A stretch of DNA of 21,932 nucleotides from a virus: the IMG/VR virus record IMGVR_UViG_3300042731_002831, positions 1-21,932 of that record; one strand, written 5' to 3'. This document shows, one piece after another, positions 3,320-20,379 of this stretch. Within the stretch, counting starts at the first letter, position 1; the number at the start of each line of letters is the position of its first letter. The notes below the pieces were generated by a model. It was not told where the DNA came from, did not search any database, and saw nothing but the letters and a program-made list of their open reading frames with translations. The translations under genes and the position numbers were made by a program.

Positions 3320-3347
3320 TTGTTTTATGCTGTATAATATTTATAGT
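3320..3347 (+). promoter_or_regulatory. putative sigma70-like promoter P1
   Basis: TTGTTT (3320-3325), a 16-bp spacer and TATAGT (3342-3347) lie in a 144-nt gap before the gene at 3404. The architecture and the upstream TTTTTAACTTG match the two stronger promoters near 11061 and 12578. A second -10-like TATAAT at 3333-3338 has no good -35. The leader ends in SD ggagga at about 3392-3397. Confidence 0.55.
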
Positions 3348-3403
3348 ATAGAGTATGTAATTTAGTGTAATTTAATATAATTTAATTTTTCGGAGGATTT
3401 TTT

Positions 3404-4342: not shown

Positions 4343-7225
4343 ATGATAAACATTACTAAGATAAATGCTATAGCAGAATTGTCAAGATTGGGTTGGGATT
4401 TTAAGCCATCTTCTTCTAATGAAGTAAAATGTTTATGTCCTGTTCATGAAGATAAAAATCCAAGTGTATCATTAAATATAGAAAAAAACGTTTGGATTTG
4501 TCATGCTTCTCAATGTAAAGCTTCTGGAGATATAATTGCTTTACTTGCTTATATTGGTAAAGTAGAAAGAAAAACTATTTTAGCCGATTTATCCTCTCGT
4601 TATCCAGATTTAAAAGAAGTTAAATCAATAAAACAAGATCGTATTGAAAAATATCATCAAGCAATTTGGGATTCTGGGCCATTTATTAATGAATTATATA
4701 AAAGAGGAGTTACTGATGATGATATAAGAGATCAAAGATTAGGATATAATAATGGAAGAATTATGATTCCTATTTTTGATTTGCAACGAAGAGTAATAAA
4801 TATTAGAAAATACTTACCAGGAGCTCCCGGTAATGATAAAATGCAAAATATGAAGGGCTATAATGTCAATGCTCTTTATATGCCTGAACAATTAAAATAT
4901 CCTACTGTTTGGATTTGTGGTGGTGAAATCAAGGCTCTTGTAGCTAAGAGATTTTTAAATAAACATAATATAGGAGCTGTAGCTTTTACTGGAGCTGAAG
5001 GAGCTTGGCATGATAGTTTAACTCCTTTATTGAAAAATAAAATAGTATTTATTTGTTTTGATGTTGATGCAGGTGGACAAGCAGGATCGAGAAGATTAGC
5101 CACTTTAATTTATACTGTTTCTCAATCTGTTTCTATTTTAACTCTTCCTTTGGATTCTAATAAGTTCCCTAAAGGTGACATTAATGATTGGGTAGTTAGT
5201 GAAAATGCTGGTGAAAAGGATTTTATCAGTTTGATGACGTTAGGTTGTAAATTTATTCCACCACAATATAAAGAAGATGATGATTCAGATGATCCTATTA
5301 ATTGCAAATTAGTACAAGCTGCAAGAGCAGAAAATGTGAACAAGAAAATACAATGCAGAGCCGTAATAGCAGCCTTAAATGAAGTTCCATTTTTAATTCC
5401 AAGAGATGTTGAAGTTTCTTGTACCAGAGATCAACCATTCTGTTCCTATTGTATAGTAAATACAAAAATACCTGATAATTCAACTGGCAGAACTAAAGTG
5501 AAATTAAAGTCTATAAATTCAAGTTTATTAAATATGGTTCATTCTCCTCAATCGAGATTAAAACCTTCAATTTTAGAAGCTTTAAAAGTACCTGATTGTA
5601 AGTCCGCTGAAGTTTATCCAATTTCTTTTTATAATGTTATTGATGTTAGATTGGGAACTCCATTAGAAATAGATAGTGATAATAATGAATATATTATACA
5701 GCCTGCCTTTATAGTTACAGATAAATCCTTAGAGTTGAATGTTCCTTATGAAGTTATTGGGAAAACATTTCCAGATCCTAAAAATTCTCAGGCAATTTTA
5801 TTAATTAATAATATAGACGAAAAGGAAGATAATTTAAGTTCTTTTAAATTCAATGAAACAGATTTAGATTCATTAAAAATATTTCAACCTGAAGAATGGT
5901 CATTTGATGGAATAGAAAAGAAACTTGATGATTTATATGATGATTTGTCTTTTAACGTTACAAGGATATTTCAAAGACAAGATCTTCATTTAGTTATTGA
6001 TTTAACTTATCATTCAGTTCTGTATTTTAATTTTGAAGGCAGACAACAACACGGATGGGTTAATTGTATAATAGCTGGTGATACTTCACAAGGTAAAACA
6101 GAAGCTTCTACAAGATTAATGGATCATTACAGACTTGGTGTAAGATATGATTGTAAAAATGCAACTAAGGCCGGTCTACTTGGGGGATTGCAACAGATGG
6201 GAGGAACTAAATGGTTTGTAACTTGGGGTATAGTTCCTATACATGATAAACAATTAGTTATAATGGAAGAAATAAAAGGTGCAAGCCCTGAAATACTCGG
6301 GACTTTAACTGATATGAGATCATCAGGTTTAGCTGAAATTGTTGGTATTGAGCGTAGAAAAGCTCATGCAAGAACAAGACTTATTATGATTTCTAACCCG
6401 AGAACAGATAAATCTATAGATTCTTATACTTTTGGGATAGAAACTATAAAAGAATTAATGGGAAATTTAGAAGATATTAGAAGATTTGATTTTGCACTTA
6501 TAGTTTCAAAACAGGAAATAAACACAAAAATTATAAACCAATTAATAACTGATAATCAAATTCAAAATCCTAAATATTCTTCAGAAGTATGCAAAAAATT
6601 AATATTATGGGCTTGGACTTGTAAACCTGAAGATATAGAATTTGAAGAAGGGGCTGAAAAATTATGTTTAAAACTGTCTAACAAATTATGTTCTGAATTT
6701 TCTGAAACTTTACCATTATGTGATAAAGGTACTATGAGACATAAATTAGCCAGACTTGCAATTTCTTTAGCTTGTAGAACTTTTAGTAATAAGAATAACG
6801 GTAAAATAAGATTTATCAGAAAATGTCACGTAGAATTTATATACAAATTTTTAATGAAGATATATTCTACTGATCATTGTGGTTATAAAAATTTTTCAAT
6901 TACTGAAAGTTTCATAGCTACAATAAGAGACGAAAATGCAGTTAGAAAGGCATTAAAAGAAAGTAAACATCGTTGGGATTTATATGAACAATTATTACAT
7001 AATGAAACCATTGATGCTAATGATTTAAGAGTTTGGTGTGAAATAGGGCAAGATAAGGCAATGGAGCTATTATCTCTATTAGTTCGTGAAAGAGCATTAT
7101 TTAAAAAGGATAGATTTTCTTATGAAAAAAGTAGCAGTTTTATTAAACTGCTAAAAAATATTTTAGAAAATAAAAACAATGATATAGAAAGTATAGATAA
7201 TATAGATGAAAGTTCGGAGTTTTAA
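4343..7225 (+). CDS. primase-helicase: CHC2 zinc finger, Toprim, MCM-like AAA+
   Basis: This 960-aa protein joins priming and unwinding. Residues 30-65 form a CHC2-type zinc finger (C32, H35, C53, C58). A Toprim primase domain follows, with its Glu at about 194 (GGEIKAL) and the DxD metal pair D240/D242 (CFDVDAGG). A middle region (about 320-420) contains CTRDQPFCSYC, possibly a zinc-bearing OB fold. The C-terminal AAA+ domain has Walker A GDTSQGKTE (K585), Walker B LVIMEE (E642/E643) and a sensor-1 Asn (MISNP, about 685). The motif order and the MEEIKGASPEILGTLTDMRSSG segment look MCM-like rather than DnaB/gp4-like. It would be the replicative primase-helicase at the fork with the polymerase at 8875. 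No SD precedes the ATG, which lies just after a terminator. Confidence 0.88.
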   Translation: MINITKINAIAELSRLGWDFKPSSSNEVKCLCPVHEDKNPSVSLNIEKNVWICHASQCKASGDIIALLAYIGKVERKTILADLSSRYPDLKEVKSIKQDRIEKYHQAIWDSGPFINELYKRGVTDDDIRDQRLGYNNGRIMIPIFDLQRRVINIRKYLPGAPGNDKMQNMKGYNVNALYMPEQLKYPTVWICGGEIKALVAKRFLNKHNIGAVAFTGAEGAWHDSLTPLLKNKIVFICFDVDAGGQAGSRRLATLIYTVSQSVSILTLPLDSNKFPKGDINDWVVSENAGEKDFISLMTLGCKFIPPQYKEDDDSDDPINCKLVQAARAENVNKKIQCRAVIAALNEVPFLIPRDVEVSCTRDQPFCSYCIVNTKIPDNSTGRTKVKLKSINSSLLNMVHSPQSRLKPSILEALKVPDCKSAEVYPISFYNVIDVRLGTPLEIDSDNNEYIIQPAFIVTDKSLELNVPYEVIGKTFPDPKNSQAILLINNIDEKEDNLSSFKFNETDLDSLKIFQPEEWSFDGIEKKLDDLYDDLSFNVTRIFQRQDLHLVIDLTYHSVLYFNFEGRQQHGWVNCIIAGDTSQGKTEASTRLMDHYRLGVRYDCKNATKAGLLGGLQQMGGTKWFVTWGIVPIHDKQLVIMEEIKGASPEILGTLTDMRSSGLAEIVGIERRKAHARTRLIMISNPRTDKSIDSYTFGIETIKELMGNLEDIRRFDFALIVSKQEINTKIINQLITDNQIQNPKYSSEVCKKLILWAWTCKPEDIEFEEGAEKLCLKLSNKLCSEFSETLPLCDKGTMRHKLARLAISLACRTFSNKNNGKIRFIRKCHVEFIYKFLMKIYSTDHCGYKNFSITESFIATIRDENAVRKALKESKHRWDLYEQLLHNETIDANDLRVWCEIGQDKAMELLSLLVRERALFKKDRFSYEKSSSFIKLLKNILENKNNDIESIDNIDESSEF

Positions 7226-11019: not shown

Positions 11020-11060
11020 TTATATTAATAAAAAATATTTATAAAATTACTATTTTTTAC

Positions 11061-11088
11061 TTGCAAAATATTATTTATATGTTATACT
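11061..11088 (+). promoter_or_regulatory. sigma70-like promoter P2 with extended -10
   Basis: TTGCAA (11061-11066), a 16-bp spacer and TATACT (11083-11088), with TG one base upstream (TGnTATACT). About 52 bases around it are almost identical to those around P3 at 12578, and two independent copies support function. It drives the cassette starting at 11151. Confidence 0.8.
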
Positions 11089-11139
11089 TTACATAAGTTC
11101 GGTAATTAATAAATCGATTTATTGTTTAATGTAAATGTA

Positions 11140-11159
11140 GGAGGCCTAAGATGGCGAAA
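11140..11159 (+). promoter_or_regulatory. duplicated ribosome-binding/start segment, copy 1
   Basis: GGAGGCCTAAGATGGCGAAA is identical over 20 nt to 13235-13254. It contains the SD (GGAGG) and the first three codons (Met-Ala-Lys). Confidence 0.85.
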
Positions 11160-11525
11160 AAGAATTCAAAGAAGACAGAAGTAAAGGCTGATAAGCCAAC
11201 ACCAACAGAAACTACAAAAGTTCCAGTGATTGTCAGTGACATTCGTAATGTAGCTGGTAATTTGGGGGAACTGGCTGATTTACCAAAAGTAACTTTAAGT
11301 CAGCGTTCAAAGCTTGTAGATGGCATTAATAAACTTGCAACAAGAGTTGAAAAGATTCTTGCGAGTGCTGGTAAAAAAGCTGAAAGGGAGGCTGCTAAAG
11401 CCAAACGCGAAGCAGTGAAGGCTGAAAAGGCAAAAGCCAAACGTGAAAAGGCTGAAAAGAAAATCGCCGATATGCGGAAGAAGCTTGAAAAGATGGAAGC
11501 TGATCTTGCTGCGGATGGTAAGTAA
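11151..11525 (+). CDS. Lys/Ala-rich coiled-coil protein, cassette 1
   Basis: The function of this 124-aa protein is not recognised. Residues 1-25 are polar and basic; about 27-70 form a compact helical or mixed section (VPVIVSDIRNVAGNLGELAD); about 72-124 are almost pure Lys/Ala/Glu/Arg helix with heptad spacing, ending IADMRKKLEKMEADLAADGK. The C-terminal helix resembles the end of the protein at 13246 (VAKMREMLKSLESQLEAEG), and both genes share an identical 20-nt ribosome-binding/start segment and a hammerhead ribozyme just downstream, so they look like paralogous cassettes. Codons are richer in G/C than in neighbours (gctgaaaaggcaaaagcc), which together with P2 and the SD suggests high expression. 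It could be DNA-binding or structural; unproven. Confidence 0.8.
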   Translation: MAKKNSKKTEVKADKPTPTETTKVPVIVSDIRNVAGNLGELADLPKVTLSQRSKLVDGINKLATRVEKILASAGKKAEREAAKAKREAVKAEKAKAKREKAEKKIADMRKKLEKMEADLAADGK

Positions 11526-11532
11526 TTAATTG

Positions 11533-11666
11533 ATCCCAGATTCGAAACTCCACCGAAAAATATTTACCGCTAATAATGTTAGCGGAGAATTAGGTTGAAA
11601 GTCCGAGAGTAGGTGGAGTATATAGCAGGTGGTGCTGTTATACTGATGAGAAGCCAATTAAGGGAT
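11533..11666 (+). ncRNA. type II hammerhead ribozyme, copy 1
   Basis: All core elements are present in the order of a hammerhead with stem II open. GAAA (11544-11547) is followed by stem III, CTCCACC (11548-11554) with GGTGGAG (11612-11618), closed by the A15.1-U16.1 pair (11547/11619). H17 is A11620, so the predicted cut is between 11620 and 11621. Stem I is TATAGCAG (11621-11628) with CTGTTATA (11635-11642) and loop GTGGTG. CTGATGA is at 11643-11649. Stem II is GAA (11650-11652) with TTC (11541-11543), an internal loop, then GGGAT (11662-11666) with ATCCC (11533-11537). The stem III loop is large (57 nt) and holds its own hairpin CCGCTAA/TTAGCGG. Cleavage would release a downstream mRNA starting with the stem I hairpin, just ahead of the gene at 11672. 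Confidence 0.92.
11615..11666 (+). repeat. direct repeat (ribozyme 3' half), copy 1
   Basis: This matches 13759-13810 with one substitution and one single-base gap. It covers the cleavage site, stem I, CTGATGA and the 3' strand of stem II. Confidence 0.9.
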
Positions 11667-12246: not shown

Positions 12247-12301
12247 AGAGGATTAATCCTCTGCCCGATACTGTCAACGTCTGCGTGCAGGCAGTATCGG
12301 G
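12247..12301 (+). terminator. palindrome plus strong hairpin (possible terminator or processing site)
   Basis: AGAGGATTAATCCTCT (12247-12262) is a perfect 16-nt palindrome. It abuts a perfect 10-bp stem, CCCGATACTG (12264-12273) with CAGTATCGGG (12292-12301), whose 18-nt loop holds a further CTGC/GCAG pairing. There is no U-run after it, so intrinsic termination would be weak; RNase processing or protein binding is equally possible. It separates the genes ending at 12204 from the one at 12329. Confidence 0.5.
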
Positions 12302-12328
12302 ATGATGGTTAATTGAAAAGGAGGTAAA

Positions 12329-12478: not shown

Positions 12479-12577
12479 TTGATTAAGGTTTGGGGAATTT
12501 AAAATGAAACGATTAGCGGAATATAAAGCTAATATATTATAGGGCGTAAAATAATTCATTAAAATTACTATTTTTAC

Positions 12578-12605
12578 TTGCAAAATCTTATTTATATGTT
12601 ATACT
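12578..12605 (+). promoter_or_regulatory. sigma70-like promoter P3 with extended -10
   Basis: TTGCAA (12578-12583), 16 bp, TATACT (12600-12605) with TG one base upstream. It is nearly identical to P2 across 12561-12612. The leader contains ATAGGTT (12610-12616) pairing with AACCTAT (12631-12637), a 7-bp hairpin next to the SD gggaga of the beta-helix gene. Confidence 0.8.
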
Positions 12606-12651
12606 TTATATAGGTTAAACAATATTATTAAACCTATTTGGGAGAAATAAA

Positions 12652-13179
12652 ATGAAATATAAGCTGTTAAAAACTGATACAATTCAAGTCGATGGAAAAA
12701 CACTATTTCGAATAAAATCATTAACTTCTTTTTCTGAAGTTAGAGCTGGGGAATTAGGTGGCTATGTTGAATCAGAAGCTAATTTAGCTCAAATTGGTGA
12801 TGCTTGGGTATCCGATGATGCTAAGGTATTTGACAATGCTAAGATATCCGATGATGCTTGGGTATCTGACAATGCTAAGATATCTGGTAATGCTGAAATA
12901 TTTGGCAATGCTGAGATATCCGATGATGCTAAGATATCCGATGATGCTAAGATATTTGGCAATGCTTGGGTATCTGACAATGCTAAGATATCTGGTGATG
13001 CTAAGATATCCGGTAATGCTTGGGTATTTGGCAATGCTGAGATATCCGGTGATGCTAATATATCTGGTGATGCTAAGATATCTGGTGATGCTAAGATATC
13101 CGGTGATGCTAATATATCTGGTGATGCTGAGATATCCGGCAATGCTAAGATATCCGGTAATGCTAAGATATCCGGTTAG
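12652..13179 (+). CDS. left-handed beta-helix hexapeptide-repeat protein
   Basis: The product (175 aa) has an N-terminal domain of about 50 residues (YKLLKTDTIQVDGKTLFRI, then GELGGYVESEANL), followed from residue 51 to the end by about 21 tandem six-residue units of the form A-[KEWN]-[IV]-[SF]-[GD]-[ND]. Hexapeptide arrays of this kind fold as a left-handed parallel beta-helix, three units per turn, giving about seven turns. The N-terminal segment plus AxVxGN repeats is a layout known in phage and prophage proteins of unclear role. None of the loops or His residues of hexapeptide acyltransferases is present, so a structural or binding role is more likely. The stop follows directly in the repeat array with no capping domain. 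It is driven by P3. Confidence 0.8.
   Translation: MKYKLLKTDTIQVDGKTLFRIKSLTSFSEVRAGELGGYVESEANLAQIGDAWVSDDAKVFDNAKISDDAWVSDNAKISGNAEIFGNAEISDDAKISDDAKIFGNAWVSDNAKISGDAKISGNAWVFGNAEISGDANISGDAKISGDAKISGDANISGDAEISGNAKISGNAKISG
12802..13176 (+). repeat. 18-bp tandem repeat encoding the beta-helix
   Basis: About 21 copies of a GCTAAGATATCCGGTGAT-like unit in register with the codons. Variation falls into a few variants (GCTTGGGTATCTGACAAT, GCTGAGATATTTGGCAAT), which suggests repeated duplication. The repetition keeps the other forward frame and the reverse strand open too; I regard those as shadows. Confidence 0.9.
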
Positions 13180-13234: not shown

Positions 13235-13254
13235 GGAGGCCTAAGATGGCGAAA
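13235..13254 (+). promoter_or_regulatory. duplicated ribosome-binding/start segment, copy 2
   Basis: Identical over 20 nt to 11140-11159, including SD GGAGG and Met-Ala-Lys codons. No promoter like P2 or P3 is seen between the beta-helix gene and this site, so it is probably transcribed from P3. Confidence 0.85.
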
Positions 13255-13713
13255 GTAAACAAAGTTGGTCAAAAAGAATCTGCAACACAAACAAAAGAGG
13301 AAAAAGGGCGTATAGATTTTCCAGTGGCGGAAGCTATGTATGTTGACAAGGAAGGGAAAATAGTCACAGCAGTTAATAATGAAGGTTTGTTAATCGCTGT
13401 GCCAAAACCTATTAAGGATGATAATGGAAATGTTACTTATAGCGGATACAATGTTCGCAGGCATCTTCCAATAAAGAAGGGACAATTCGAATCAACAGGA
13501 ACTTATTTAAGATATCAGGCTTATGTTGCTCGACTTAAAGCCGCTATTCTTATCAAGAATGCTGAAGATAAGGAAAGTAAAGCTGAGCGAGTTGAAAAGT
13601 TTGGTGATGAAAAAACGCGTCGTGCAGTAGCTAAAGTTGCTAAGATGCGTGAAATGCTTAAATCTCTTGAATCTCAGCTTGAAGCTGAAGGAGTTAATGT
13701 AGAAGATATTTAA
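13246..13713 (+). CDS. hypothetical basic protein, cassette 2
   Basis: The product (155 aa) is not recognised. After a polar N-terminus (MAKVNKVGQKESATQTKEEK), residues about 25-75 look beta-rich (AMYVDKEGKIVTAVNNEGLL, NVTYSGYNVRRHLPIKKGQF). The C-terminal 70 residues are helical and charged, ending VAKMREMLKSLESQLEAEG, which resembles the tail of the cassette-1 protein at 11151. Shared start segment, similar tail and a ribozyme immediately downstream mark the two genes as a duplicated unit. Codons are again richer in G/C than in most neighbours. A nucleic-acid-binding or virion-associated role is possible but unsupported. Confidence 0.78.
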   Translation: MAKVNKVGQKESATQTKEEKGRIDFPVAEAMYVDKEGKIVTAVNNEGLLIAVPKPIKDDNGNVTYSGYNVRRHLPIKKGQFESTGTYLRYQAYVARLKAAILIKNAEDKESKAERVEKFGDEKTRRAVAKVAKMREMLKSLESQLEAEGVNVEDI

Positions 13714-13719
13714 CACACT

Positions 13720-13809
13720 CCCCTCATTTCGAAACTCCGCTGTAGTAATTATCTCGGCGGAGTATATAGCAGGTGGTGCTGTTATACTGATGAGAAACCA
13801 ATTAAGGGG
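13720..13809 (+). ncRNA. type II hammerhead ribozyme, copy 2
   Basis: Same topology as the copy at 11533. GAAA is at 13731-13734. Stem III is CTCCGCTG (13735-13742) with CGGCGGAG (13755-13762), plus A-U closure (13734/13763). H17 is A13764, so the predicted cut is between 13764 and 13765. Stem I is TATAGCAG (13765-13772) with CTGTTATA (13779-13786), loop GTGGTG. CTGATGA is at 13787-13793. Stem II is GAAA (13794-13797) with TTTC (13727-13730), then AGGGG (13805-13809) with CCCCT (13720-13724). Compared with copy 1, stem III changes on both strands (CTCCACC/GGTGGAG to CTCCGCTG/CGGCGGAG) and stem II likewise (ATCCC/GGGAT to CCCCT/AGGGG), so pairing is kept while sequence drifts. A second AGGGG at 13817-13821 could compete for CCCCT. 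Confidence 0.93.
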
Positions 13810-13810
13810 A
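13759..13810 (+). repeat. direct repeat (ribozyme 3' half), copy 2
   Basis: Matches 11615-11666 with one substitution and one single-base gap. Confidence 0.9.
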
Positions 13811-13829
13811 TAATTAAGGGGTGTGAAAA

Positions 13830-14198
13830 ATGAAATGTTGTTCTAATGTAGTAAATACAAAAACTAAATTAAGAGATTTATCTGAAAATGTTAAAGTAGA
13901 TAAATGTTTGATTAAACGCTATACTGATATATTAAAAAATAAAGATGAAATAATTGCTGAATATGATGCTGAAATAGCTAAAATAGAATCTAAAAAAGCT
14001 GAGATATTAAAAGATTATAATTCAGCTCCAAGTAAAATTAAAGAACTAAATATTCATCTTAAAGAAATGACTTCTAAAATGCAAGATATAAAAGATAAGG
14101 CGAGCGGTAAAAAACGTAAAATTCAACGATTAAAACTTTTACGCCAACGTCTTGCAACTTTAGAAGCTGAAATTGCCAAAGATCAATTAACAACTTAA
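13830..14198 (+). CDS. coiled-coil hypothetical protein (122 aa)
   Basis: The ATG lies 20 nt after the ribozyme, with an SD-like aaggggtg that may pair with bases 5' of the ribozyme. The product is almost entirely helical. After MKCCSNVVNTKTK, residues about 15-115 show heptad spacing with Lys/Glu/Ile/Leu (IAEYDAEIAKIESKKAEILK; LKLLRQRLATLEAEIAK), so it is probably a dimeric coiled coil. An N-terminal Cys pair is present, with no further zinc motif. It is the last gene before a 339-nt non-coding stretch. Function unknown; a scaffold or partner of the two Lys/Ala-rich cassette proteins is only a guess. Confidence 0.7.
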   Translation: MKCCSNVVNTKTKLRDLSENVKVDKCLIKRYTDILKNKDEIIAEYDAEIAKIESKKAEILKDYNSAPSKIKELNIHLKEMTSKMQDIKDKASGKKRKIQRLKLLRQRLATLEAEIAKDQLTT

Positions 14199-14537
14199 AA
14201 TCAATATTAGCCGTTTACTCTTATCGTTAATAAAGAGCGTAAAGCGGTAATGGTTGCTTAACAACAGAATCCGTAGAGCAGTACGAAAACCCGCTTATTT
14301 AATTGATACTATTAAGTTTAGCTGCGAGCTGAACTATTATATTGTTATGAGACTGTTAATTTATAATAGTCTCTAATTATTATACATCGCGTCCAGTACA
14401 TTAACGGCGATATATTATCAAATCCCAAGGGCTGGAGTAGGGCATATTAATATTAAGGAGGTGAAAGCTGCGATATCAATAAGTCGGTTATTAACCTCCT
14501 TTTAATTAAATTTAACCATAGTACAAAGAAAAACAAA
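14199..14537 (+). ncRNA. 339-nt non-coding region with serial hairpins
   Basis: I see no gene here but several well-formed stems. CCGTTTACTCTT (from 14211) pairs imperfectly with AAGAGCGTAAAGCGG (to 14247). AGTTTAGCT (14315-14323) pairs with AGCTGAACT (14327-14335), 9 bp with a GCG loop. GAGACTGTTA (14349-14358) pairs with TAATAGTCTC (14364-14373), 10 bp with an ATTTA loop. ATCGC (14386-14390) pairs with GCGAT (14407-14411). The last hairpin is listed separately as a terminator. No tRNA T-arm, CTGATGA core or known riboswitch core was found. It could be one or more small RNAs or a long structured leader for the ligase gene. Confidence 0.45.
14455..14503 (+). terminator. terminator-like hairpin with SD/anti-SD stem
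   Basis: AAGGAGGT (14455-14462) pairs perfectly with ACCTCCTT (14494-14501), followed by TT and an AT-rich stretch; the loop is 31 nt. One strand is a perfect Shine-Dalgarno with no start codon at normal spacing, and the other copies the anti-SD end of 16S rRNA. It may terminate transcripts entering the ligase gene; the long loop lowers confidence. Confidence 0.5.
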
Positions 14538-18936: not shown

Positions 18937-19489
18937 TGAATAAAAAATATAATATAATTTATGCTGATCCCCCATGGAATTATAAAGATGGATTTAGCAA
19001 TCCATCTTCAAATAATTGTAATATTTCTATGCACTATCCCACAATGGATTTACAAGATATTAAAAATTTATCTATTGAGAAAATTGCTAAAGAAGATTGT
19101 TTATTATTTATTTGGACAACTGATGCTCACCTACCAAAATGTTTAGAAGTGATAAAGGCTTGGGGTTTTAAATATATTACAGTTGGATTCTATTGGTATA
19201 AAAAGACTAAGAATAATAAAACTCATATTGTTTTTGGTAGATGGACTTTGAAATCTGTAGAAATGTGTCTTCTTGCAGGGCGAGGTCACCCATCATATTT
19301 AAAATTTGTAGCAATGTCCGTCAATTTGTAGAAGAAAAGGTGACGGGGCATAGTATAAAACCTTTAGAAGTTGCAAATAGGATTGTTGAATTAGTTGGTA
19401 ATGCTCCACGAATAGAACTTTTTGCTCGTGATAAAAAAGAAGGCTGGGATGTATGGGGTAATGAAGTTGAAAGTGATATTATATTATGA
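18936..19489 (+). CDS. MT-A70 adenine methyltransferase, reading frame shifts -1 near 19304
   Basis: The first frame (18936-19331) encodes an N-terminal part with the catalytic D11-P-P-W14 motif (IIYADPPWNYKDG), then LLFIWTTDAHLPK and CLLAGRGHP. The rest of the MT-A70 fold, RNVRQ-like SNVRQFVEEKVTGHS, KPLEVANRIVELV and IELFARDKKEGWDVWGNEV, is in the -1 frame up to 19489. The break falls exactly at TTTAAAA (19298-19304), read T TTA AAA in the first frame; a -1 slip yields 184 aa, the usual phage length. Without it the protein ends at 19331 (131 aa) and loses the C-terminal block. The family methylates N6 of adenine in DNA (or RNA). The -1 end overlaps the next gene as ATGA. Programmed frameshifting, mutation and sequencing error are all possible. 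Confidence 0.8.
19298..19350 (+). promoter_or_regulatory. candidate -1 ribosomal frameshift signal
   Basis: The slippery heptamer TTTAAAA (19298-19304) is in the right phase (T TTA AAA). About 13 nt later CCGTCA (19318-19323) pairs with TGACGG (19341-19346) around a 17-nt loop; extending through a G-U and a bulged G to 19315/19350 shortens the spacer to 10 nt. The zero-frame stop is at 19329. Confidence 0.6.
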
Positions 19490-20379
19490 ATTATGATCGT
19501 AAAATATTGATAGCTTCAAATGCTTTCATCCCAAGAATGAAAGCTCAAAATATCGTTAAAGATTTGAATTATCATTATATTTTTAATACTGATGAAGAGC
19601 GAAATAGAGCTATTAAAGAATTTAATTTAAGAAAAGAAGGTACTCATGTTGCTAATATAAATAAAGAAAAAGTTAAGCAATATGGAGTAACTTTAGCAAG
19701 AGAATGGGGTGAACGTAATTTAACAAATGAAGAAGAGTGGTATATTTGGCTTGATGATAATGTAAGTCATTTTACTTGGCTTCCTTATCCTTGGTATGAT
19801 TATGATAGAATTGATTTTGATTTAGATTGGGATGATCCTAATGGTAAAGAATTAATAATAAAACATAGCTATGATTGGAGATATATTTATAATGAAATTT
19901 GCCCAATAAAACAGATAATAAAAAATTGGGAAGAGATGATAAAGAAATGTGAAGAAATGAATACTGTTGCTGGTGGATTTGCTATAGAAACTAATTATTT
20001 CTTTAGAAGAATAAAATGGCAATATTTTGGTTATTGTCGAACTCAAAATGCTGTAATAAAAAATACTGGCCTTCCTTGGGATTATTGGGAAGGCGGAATG
20101 ATAGAAGATATGGCTCGTAGTGTGGATGTCGTTGCTCGTTATGGTTGTGTTTGTATAAATAGATTTATGAAACCAATGAAACAATTTTGGGAGAAAGGGG
20201 GAATAGGTTCTTTACAAGAAAGAATGCCTAATCTAATAGACGGATGTAAAAGATTAATGGAAATGTATCCCGGACTTCTTCAATATGTTAAAGATCATGA
20301 ATATCAATTAATGTTTAAATATAAAAGACAAAAAAGTGTAAATAAATGGCGGCGAGAAAACGGATATTTACAAGGATAG
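19486..20379 (+). CDS. second predicted DNA-base glycosyltransferase (TAGT/GREB1-like GT-A fold)
   Basis: The product (297 aa) follows the same plan as the glycosyltransferase at 18103 with low identity: N-terminal RKILIASNAFIPR, a strand-turn containing YHYIFNTDEERN, an ANINKEKVKQYGVTLAREWG helix with a conserved Arg (about residue 72), and the GT-A metal motif EWYIWLDDNVSHF (D90-D91-N92). Aromatic-rich acceptor segments follow (FAIETNYFFRR, WDYWEGGMIEDMARSVDVV). The DDN in place of DDD suggests a related but distinct enzyme, possibly adding a second sugar or acting on another acceptor. Its start overlaps the end of the -1 frame of the methyltransferase (ATGA), so it may be coupled to the frameshift product. 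Family call moderate; activity inferred. Confidence 0.7.
   Translation: MNYDRKILIASNAFIPRMKAQNIVKDLNYHYIFNTDEERNRAIKEFNLRKEGTHVANINKEKVKQYGVTLAREWGERNLTNEEEWYIWLDDNVSHFTWLPYPWYDYDRIDFDLDWDDPNGKELIIKHSYDWRYIYNEICPIKQIIKNWEEMIKKCEEMNTVAGGFAIETNYFFRRIKWQYFGYCRTQNAVIKNTGLPWDYWEGGMIEDMARSVDVVARYGCVCINRFMKPMKQFWEKGGIGSLQERMPNLIDGCKRLMEMYPGLLQYVKDHEYQLMFKYKRQKSVNKWRRENGYLQG

Follow-up and report, generated by a model that had tools for sequence, protein, structure and literature searches.

Two type II hammerhead ribozymes of an uncultured tailed-phage-like virus as probable dividers of polycistronic mRNA

Genomic setting and architecture of the two elements

The window, by which is meant the whole stretch of DNA analysed, is a virus record of 21.9 kb whose genes include ones of the DNA polymerase A, primase, ligase and thymidylate synthase types, and its source is an uncultured, tailed-phage-like virus. 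A search of known-phage DNA with the window returned, for the most part, either the hexapeptide-repeat gene or matches that were short and weak. The gene at 12652-13179 consists mostly of an 18-nt (6-residue) tandem repeat of the hexapeptide/YdcK-like beta-solenoid kind, and similar repeats occur in many phages.

Two hammerhead elements, here called copy 1 and copy 2, are located downstream of the genes g11151 and g13246, respectively (Table 1). Outside the window, g13246 has homologues in 11 viral contigs and in one phage record, while the search of bacterial and archaeal genomes found no relatives; the AlphaFold model of its product is of low confidence (mean pLDDT 65). Promoter-like repeats (11031-11099 and 12548-12616) are common to g11151 and g13246, and the second of them is likely, as judged from its consensus match, to be the start of the copy 2 transcript. 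The two genes have also an identical 20-nt ribosome-binding/start region, GGAGGCCTAAGATGGCGAAA (11140-11159 and 13235-13254), a similar version of which is found almost unchanged before their homologues in the related phage L143. Elsewhere between genes, an inverted repeat with 22-nt arms and an 18-nt loop, CTGCCCGATACTG..CAGTATCGGG, occupies positions 12252-12313.

Table 1. Coordinates of the two hammerhead elements, their parts and the neighbouring features in the window
Feature	Position	Strand	Basis
g11151, 124 aa, upstream of copy 1	11151..11525	+	
Type II hammerhead ribozyme, copy 1, same plan as copy 2	11541..11656	+	sequence, CM match
Stem III, copy 1, 57-nt loop	CTCCACC 11548-11554 / GGTGGAG 11612-11618	+	
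Predicted cleavage site, copy 1	11620/11621	+	
Stem I, copy 1	11621-11642	+	
Core, copy 1	11643-11649	+	
Promoter-like repeat TTGCAA-16-TATACT, 81% identical to 11031-11099	12548..12616	+	consensus match only
g13246, 155 aa, upstream of copy 2, function unassigned	13246..13713	+	
Alternative closing helix, copy 2, CACACTCC 13714-13721 / GGGGTGTG 13818-13825, spanning the downstream ribosome-binding site	13714..13825	+	
Type II hammerhead ribozyme, copy 2, stem II 5' strand to pseudoknot strand	13727..13800	+	sequence, CM match
Core G12 A13 A14, copy 2	13731..13733	+	sequence; invariant across viral set
Stem III, copy 2, CTCCGCTG 13735-13742 / CGGCGGAG 13755-13762, 12-nt loop	13735..13762	+	
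Predicted cleavage site, copy 2, after A17 (13764)	13764..13765	+	hammerhead numbering
Stem I, copy 2, TATAGCAG/CTGTTATA, loop GTGGTG 13773-13778	13765..13786	+	
Core CTGATGA, copy 2	13787..13793	+	sequence
Stem II 3' strand GAA, copy 2, partner TTC 13728-13730	13794..13796	+	
Pseudoknot strand ACCA, copy 2, partner loop I TGGT 13774-13777	13797..13800	+	
g13830, 122 aa, downstream of copy 2, coiled-coil-like	13830..14198	+	

Copy 2 has an open stem II and loop-closed stems I and III, the three helices being arranged around the core, and its layout on the plus strand, between g13246 and g13830, is TTC-GAAA-CTCCGCTG..CGGCGGAG-U-A/UAUAGCAG-GUGGUG-CUGUUAUA-CUGAUGA-GAA-ACCA. The CUGANGA and GAA core with its A15.1-U16.1 pair (13734 and 13763 in copy 2) is exact in both copies, and both present GUA as cleavage triplet, with A17 at 13764 and 11620, which conforms to NUH in that H17 is not G. 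A pseudoknot of 4 bp between loop I and the tail may be formed in each (UGGU/ACCA in copy 2, UGGU/GCCA in copy 1). This contact was absent from the original prediction, which had described 13720-13809 as a second hammerhead ribozyme; the letters it had assigned to stem III and to the outer pairing in both copies were all found where it had placed them, and the cleavage site it had given at 13764/13765 reads U-A/U. The outer pairings are ATCCC (11533-11537) with GGGAT (11662-11666) in copy 1 and CCCCT (13720-13724) with AGGGG (13805-13809) in copy 2. The stem III loop of copy 1 contains a second GAAA segment, AGGTTGAAAGTCC..AGTA (11585-11611), resembling AGGTCGAAACTCC..AGTA in copy 1 of the related phage L146 (near 3340-3370), and possibly left over from the 5' half of an older ribozyme.

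Detection and class assignment

A CM constructed from 19 type II hammerheads of other viruses, with the window left out, matched copy 2 at 13721-13809 with 52.3 bits (E 4.6e-12) and copy 1 with 48 bits, the latter being a lower bound as regards the outer pairing because the aligner took the nearer GAAA inside the stem III loop; the third-best match in the window reached 10 bits. A descriptor demanding GAAA, NUH, CTGATGA, stem II and at least 13 pairs in stems I and III was matched twice in 1000 dinucleotide shuffles (both strands), compared with the two real matches of 15 and 16 pairs, so that about 0.002 such matches per window are expected by chance. A further hammerhead-like match at 19469-19589 was set aside, having 4+6 pairs and no GUGGUG loop; the CM match near it scored 7.5 bits, and descriptor matches with at least 10 pairs numbered six in 1000 shuffles.

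The Rfam scan of the window gave no match over the cut-off. With the type II family RF02276, whose gathering cut-off of 37 bits is a curated score threshold holding no structural definition, copy 1 scored 20.9 bits and copy 2 was unlisted. The same cut-off is passed by three elements of L152 and one of L155, located in corresponding gaps within the same phage clade, and the Rfam type II model overlooks some AT-rich phage hammerheads. As in the type II hammerhead of RF02276 (Perreault et al. 2011, PMC3088659), for which the pseudoknot has been described, the window copies combine an open stem II with closed stems I and III, a CUGAUGA and GAAA core with an NUH site and a GUGGUG-type loop I pseudoknotted to the tail 3' of stem II, and several copies flank genes in phages or prophages. 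They differ in their AT-rich stems, in the score below the cut-off, in the 57-nt stem III loop of copy 1 and in having A as H17, a position at which 45 of 50 viral type II hammerheads have C. The ribozyme class is a known one, and the window copies are well-supported additional members of it.

Covariation of the helices

The original prediction had regarded the differences between the two copies as compensatory and as direct evidence for selection on the folded RNA. In stem III this is borne out by one double change (pair 5, A-U to G-C), the remainder consisting of a single change (pair 7, C-G to U-G) and one extra pair. The covariation claimed for the outer part of stem II does not stand, since the helices have different registers in the two copies and are thus not homologous pairs with true compensatory changes; moreover, no such helix is evident in the orthologues of gap 2, the gap that follows g13246.

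A covariation test with related genomes had also been proposed, and the elements behave in it as predicted. In a nine-member clade alignment, anchored on core and pairing, 143 of the 144 cells (16 pairs) remain paired although double changes are numerous, whereas shuffling gave 106 on average and 119 at most; these members having been selected for paired stems, the percentage arises partly by construction and the variety of pair types is the informative part. The pseudoknot is present with 4-5 bp and changed letters in all nine. Among 69 distinct hammerheads of a wide viral set, whose alignment was fitted to the structure, double changes occur in 14 of the 16 pairs, 99.3% of the cells are paired, compared with 62.9% after shuffling, and the covariation score reaches 0.867 (0.184 shuffled, about 0.1 with slid partners). 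The mean pseudoknot length in this set, 4.26 bp versus 3.98 bp shuffled, represents a modest gain that nevertheless exceeds 1000 shuffles. Alignment of the viral hammerheads was by CM, as MAFFT had misregistered rows with a 21-nt stem I.

Compensatory changes are hence found for the helices in both the clade and the wide set. The hammerhead identity of 13720-13809 is upheld by the CM score, the shuffles and the covariation in relatives. Selection on the fold is likewise supported, although the decisive evidence is provided by the relatives, the comparison of two copies alone being thin evidence.

The same gene gaps in related phages

Homologues of g11151 are followed by a hammerhead in L143/L146, L147, L152 and L155. 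In L143/L146, whose DNA polymerase is 74% identical to that of the window, a hammerhead follows the g13246 homologue as well, which is also the location of the single hammerhead of L148, and L152 has one in every gap of the block g13246-g11151-g13830-ligase. The third hammerhead of the L152 array (4759-4835, before the ligase gene) is over the Rfam cut-off with the core CCGATGA and not CTGATGA. The corresponding element after the g11151 homologue of L150/L151 (L140 5535-5600) has kept stem I, CTGACGA and the pseudoknot letters, its GAAA and stem III being missing; this half hammerhead is a decayed orthologue of copy 1.

Gap 2 is occupied by terminator-like hairpins in L150 and L155, by hairpins without a T run directly behind in L132/L149 and L154, and in L147 by a long hairpin followed by ATTTTG according to the fold, the hairpin scan giving a different stem there. 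The gene tree is too poorly resolved for ordering the gains and losses of ribozymes and hairpins in this gap. Since several relatives have no ribozyme in gap 2 and the L150/L151 element has decayed, the ribozyme is dispensable in some lineages.

Homogenised halves and the possibility of a selfish element

The 3' halves of the ribozymes, running from U16.1 to the tail, show 98% identity between the window copies (11612-11664 and 13756-13808) and 100% between the two L146 copies, whereas the window and L146 share 84-86%. For the 5' halves the identity is 40% and 36% within the genome (window and L146) and 58-59% between orthologues, in a small sample in which the different lengths of the copy 1 and copy 2 5' halves lower their identity. 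L152 reverses the pattern, with uniform 5' halves (89-96%). Our reading is that halves uniform within a genome probably result from recombination between copies. The observation that core and stem I are unchanged between the window copies was correct in that the halves are near-identical, but it is at least partly accounted for by this presumed homogenisation and not by constraint alone.

Homogenised halves, together with the patchy presence in gap 2 and the decayed L150/L151 copy, would also fit a selfish or vestigial element spread by recombination within phage genomes and functionless for the phage. We consider this unlikely, as the fold has persisted through deep divergence, compensatory changes having occurred in every stem, and hammerheads follow g11151 in five lineages.

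Proposed role in mRNA division

In a sample of 50 viral type II hammerheads, non-random as it was fetched by a motif pattern and including the window copies, 47 have an ORF stop no farther than 80 nt upstream, in many cases at 1-6 nt, and in 38 an SD and start codon follow within 70 nt downstream. Hammerhead arrays are common in the viral set, an example being L007 with ten listed in about 3 kb. Prophage arrays were shown to cleave in vitro, and one of them in E. coli (PMC3088659). The role of prokaryotic and phage hammerheads is considered an open question (PMC6155905). A start codon also closely follows the HHphage hammerhead of haloviruses HF1/HF2, and there a major transcript has its mapped 5' end at most three nucleotides from the cut site (PMC3088659). 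HHphage has a variant core and belongs to an archaeal virus, while the window copies have the standard core.

We consider it probable that both elements are type II hammerheads of a tailed-phage-like virus that divide its polycistronic mRNA between genes. This view is based on sequence, structure, covariation, orthologous position and the hairpins or terminator-like sites that sister phages have in gap 2; the cleavage itself and its benefit are what we infer. Cutting of the mRNA would most likely be co-transcriptional and take place at each gap, by analogy with the proposal made for prophage arrays (PMC3088659). As the RNA folds during transcription, stems I and III would close and the pseudoknot between loop I and the tail would keep stems I and II side by side, leading to a strand cut after A17 that would split the polycistronic phage mRNA in the space separating two genes. 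From known hammerhead chemistry, the message upstream of the cut would be left with a terminal stem III hairpin bearing a 2',3'-cyclic phosphate, and the one downstream would have the stem I hairpin at its start, carrying a 5'-OH and near its own ribosome-binding site. The benefit may be that message ends are defined and protected and that the expression of adjacent genes is uncoupled.

An intrinsic terminator or 3' hairpin, of the kind found after g13246 in L150 and L155 (terminator-like) and in L132 and L154 (hairpin), would also fix the 3' end of the upstream message. The difference is that a terminator halts transcription, whereas the ribozyme would cut while transcription of the downstream gene continues. 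From the hairpins and terminator-like sites that sister phages have in this gap, a defined message boundary seems to be what matters. We tentatively propose, with somewhat less than even confidence, that in this phage lineage hammerhead and hairpin or intrinsic terminator are interchangeable at one gap, the ribozyme being a working operon divider that sets the mRNA ends and has one half kept uniform within a genome by recombination between copies. The aspects that are new here are this putative exchange of ribozymes with hairpins or terminators and the homogenisation of one ribozyme half within genomes. Among the sister phages, one gap between recognisably homologous genes varies in its device, from ribozyme to hairpin to terminator-like site. 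This is a natural swap experiment, in which message ends and the expression of g13246 and g13830 could be compared from device to device.

Folding energies, which omit the pseudoknot and core contacts, place the active fold 1.4-2.2 kcal/mol above the minimum, as for other viral members; for copy 2 with shorter flanks the value is 1.4 kcal/mol, ordinary for the class. With longer flanks the minimum fold of copy 2 buries the core in a CUCAUU/GAUGAG helix, which counts against mRNA division by the ribozyme, as do the A at H17, the Rfam scores under the cut-off and the absence or decay of the element in some relatives. The flanks are also the basis of a possible translation switch, in which a closing helix of the uncut RNA would mask the downstream ribosome-binding site until exposed by self-cleavage. 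The SD region can indeed pair with the 5' flank in both window copies (ATCCC/GGGAT; CACACTCC/GGGGTGTG), with duplex energies better than most shuffles (p 0.003 and 0.014), making the switch plausible from the window alone. It is weakened by the gap-2 orthologues of L146, L148 and L152, where inspection by eye revealed no closing helix; besides, copy 1 of L143/L146 is followed by promoter-like sequence and not by SD and start codon, and the cut strands could remain paired after cleavage. Such a switch is accordingly improbable.

Hammerhead cleavage leaves 2',3'-cyclic phosphate and 5'-OH ends, the form required for ligation, and two active flanking ribozymes could in this way release the 2144-nt RNA between the two cuts for circularisation or other use as a unit. 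This is very unlikely in view of the variable inter-copy segment (just a promoter-like stretch and g13246 in L143), of the single ribozyme of L148 and of the published prophage-array study, which detected no spliced or circular products (PMC3088659). Least probable is a chance resemblance, or an inactive hammerhead-like fold serving merely as a hairpin: the window copies are below the Rfam cut-off and some consensus hammerheads proved inactive when assayed (PMC3088659), but the shuffle rarity, CM scores, orthologues, clade covariation and Rfam-passing elements of L152 and L155 speak against it, and the catalytic core, for which a plain hairpin would have no need, is intact in nearly all relatives.

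Other conserved elements of the gene gaps

Gene gaps of the clade repeatedly contain a hairpin in which an AAAACC/GGTTTT-like outer helix encloses the conserved internal loop CAATAC .. GACTTRT: L132 11399-11465, L148 about 4604-4662 and 5060-5120, and L176 near 480 (minus strand). The L148 hairpin has no Rfam match, and a pattern scan for a second hairpin motif gave mostly chance matches. In L132 the CAATAC .. GACTTRT hairpin lies at the exact position of window copy 2. The intergenic sequence TCGCGYCCAGTACAYTAACGGCGA..AAGGGCTGGAGTAGGG, which has no match in Rfam, is conserved between diverged flanks in the window (14385-14450), L132 (11940-12010) and L143 (8150-8215), and is a candidate structured RNA.
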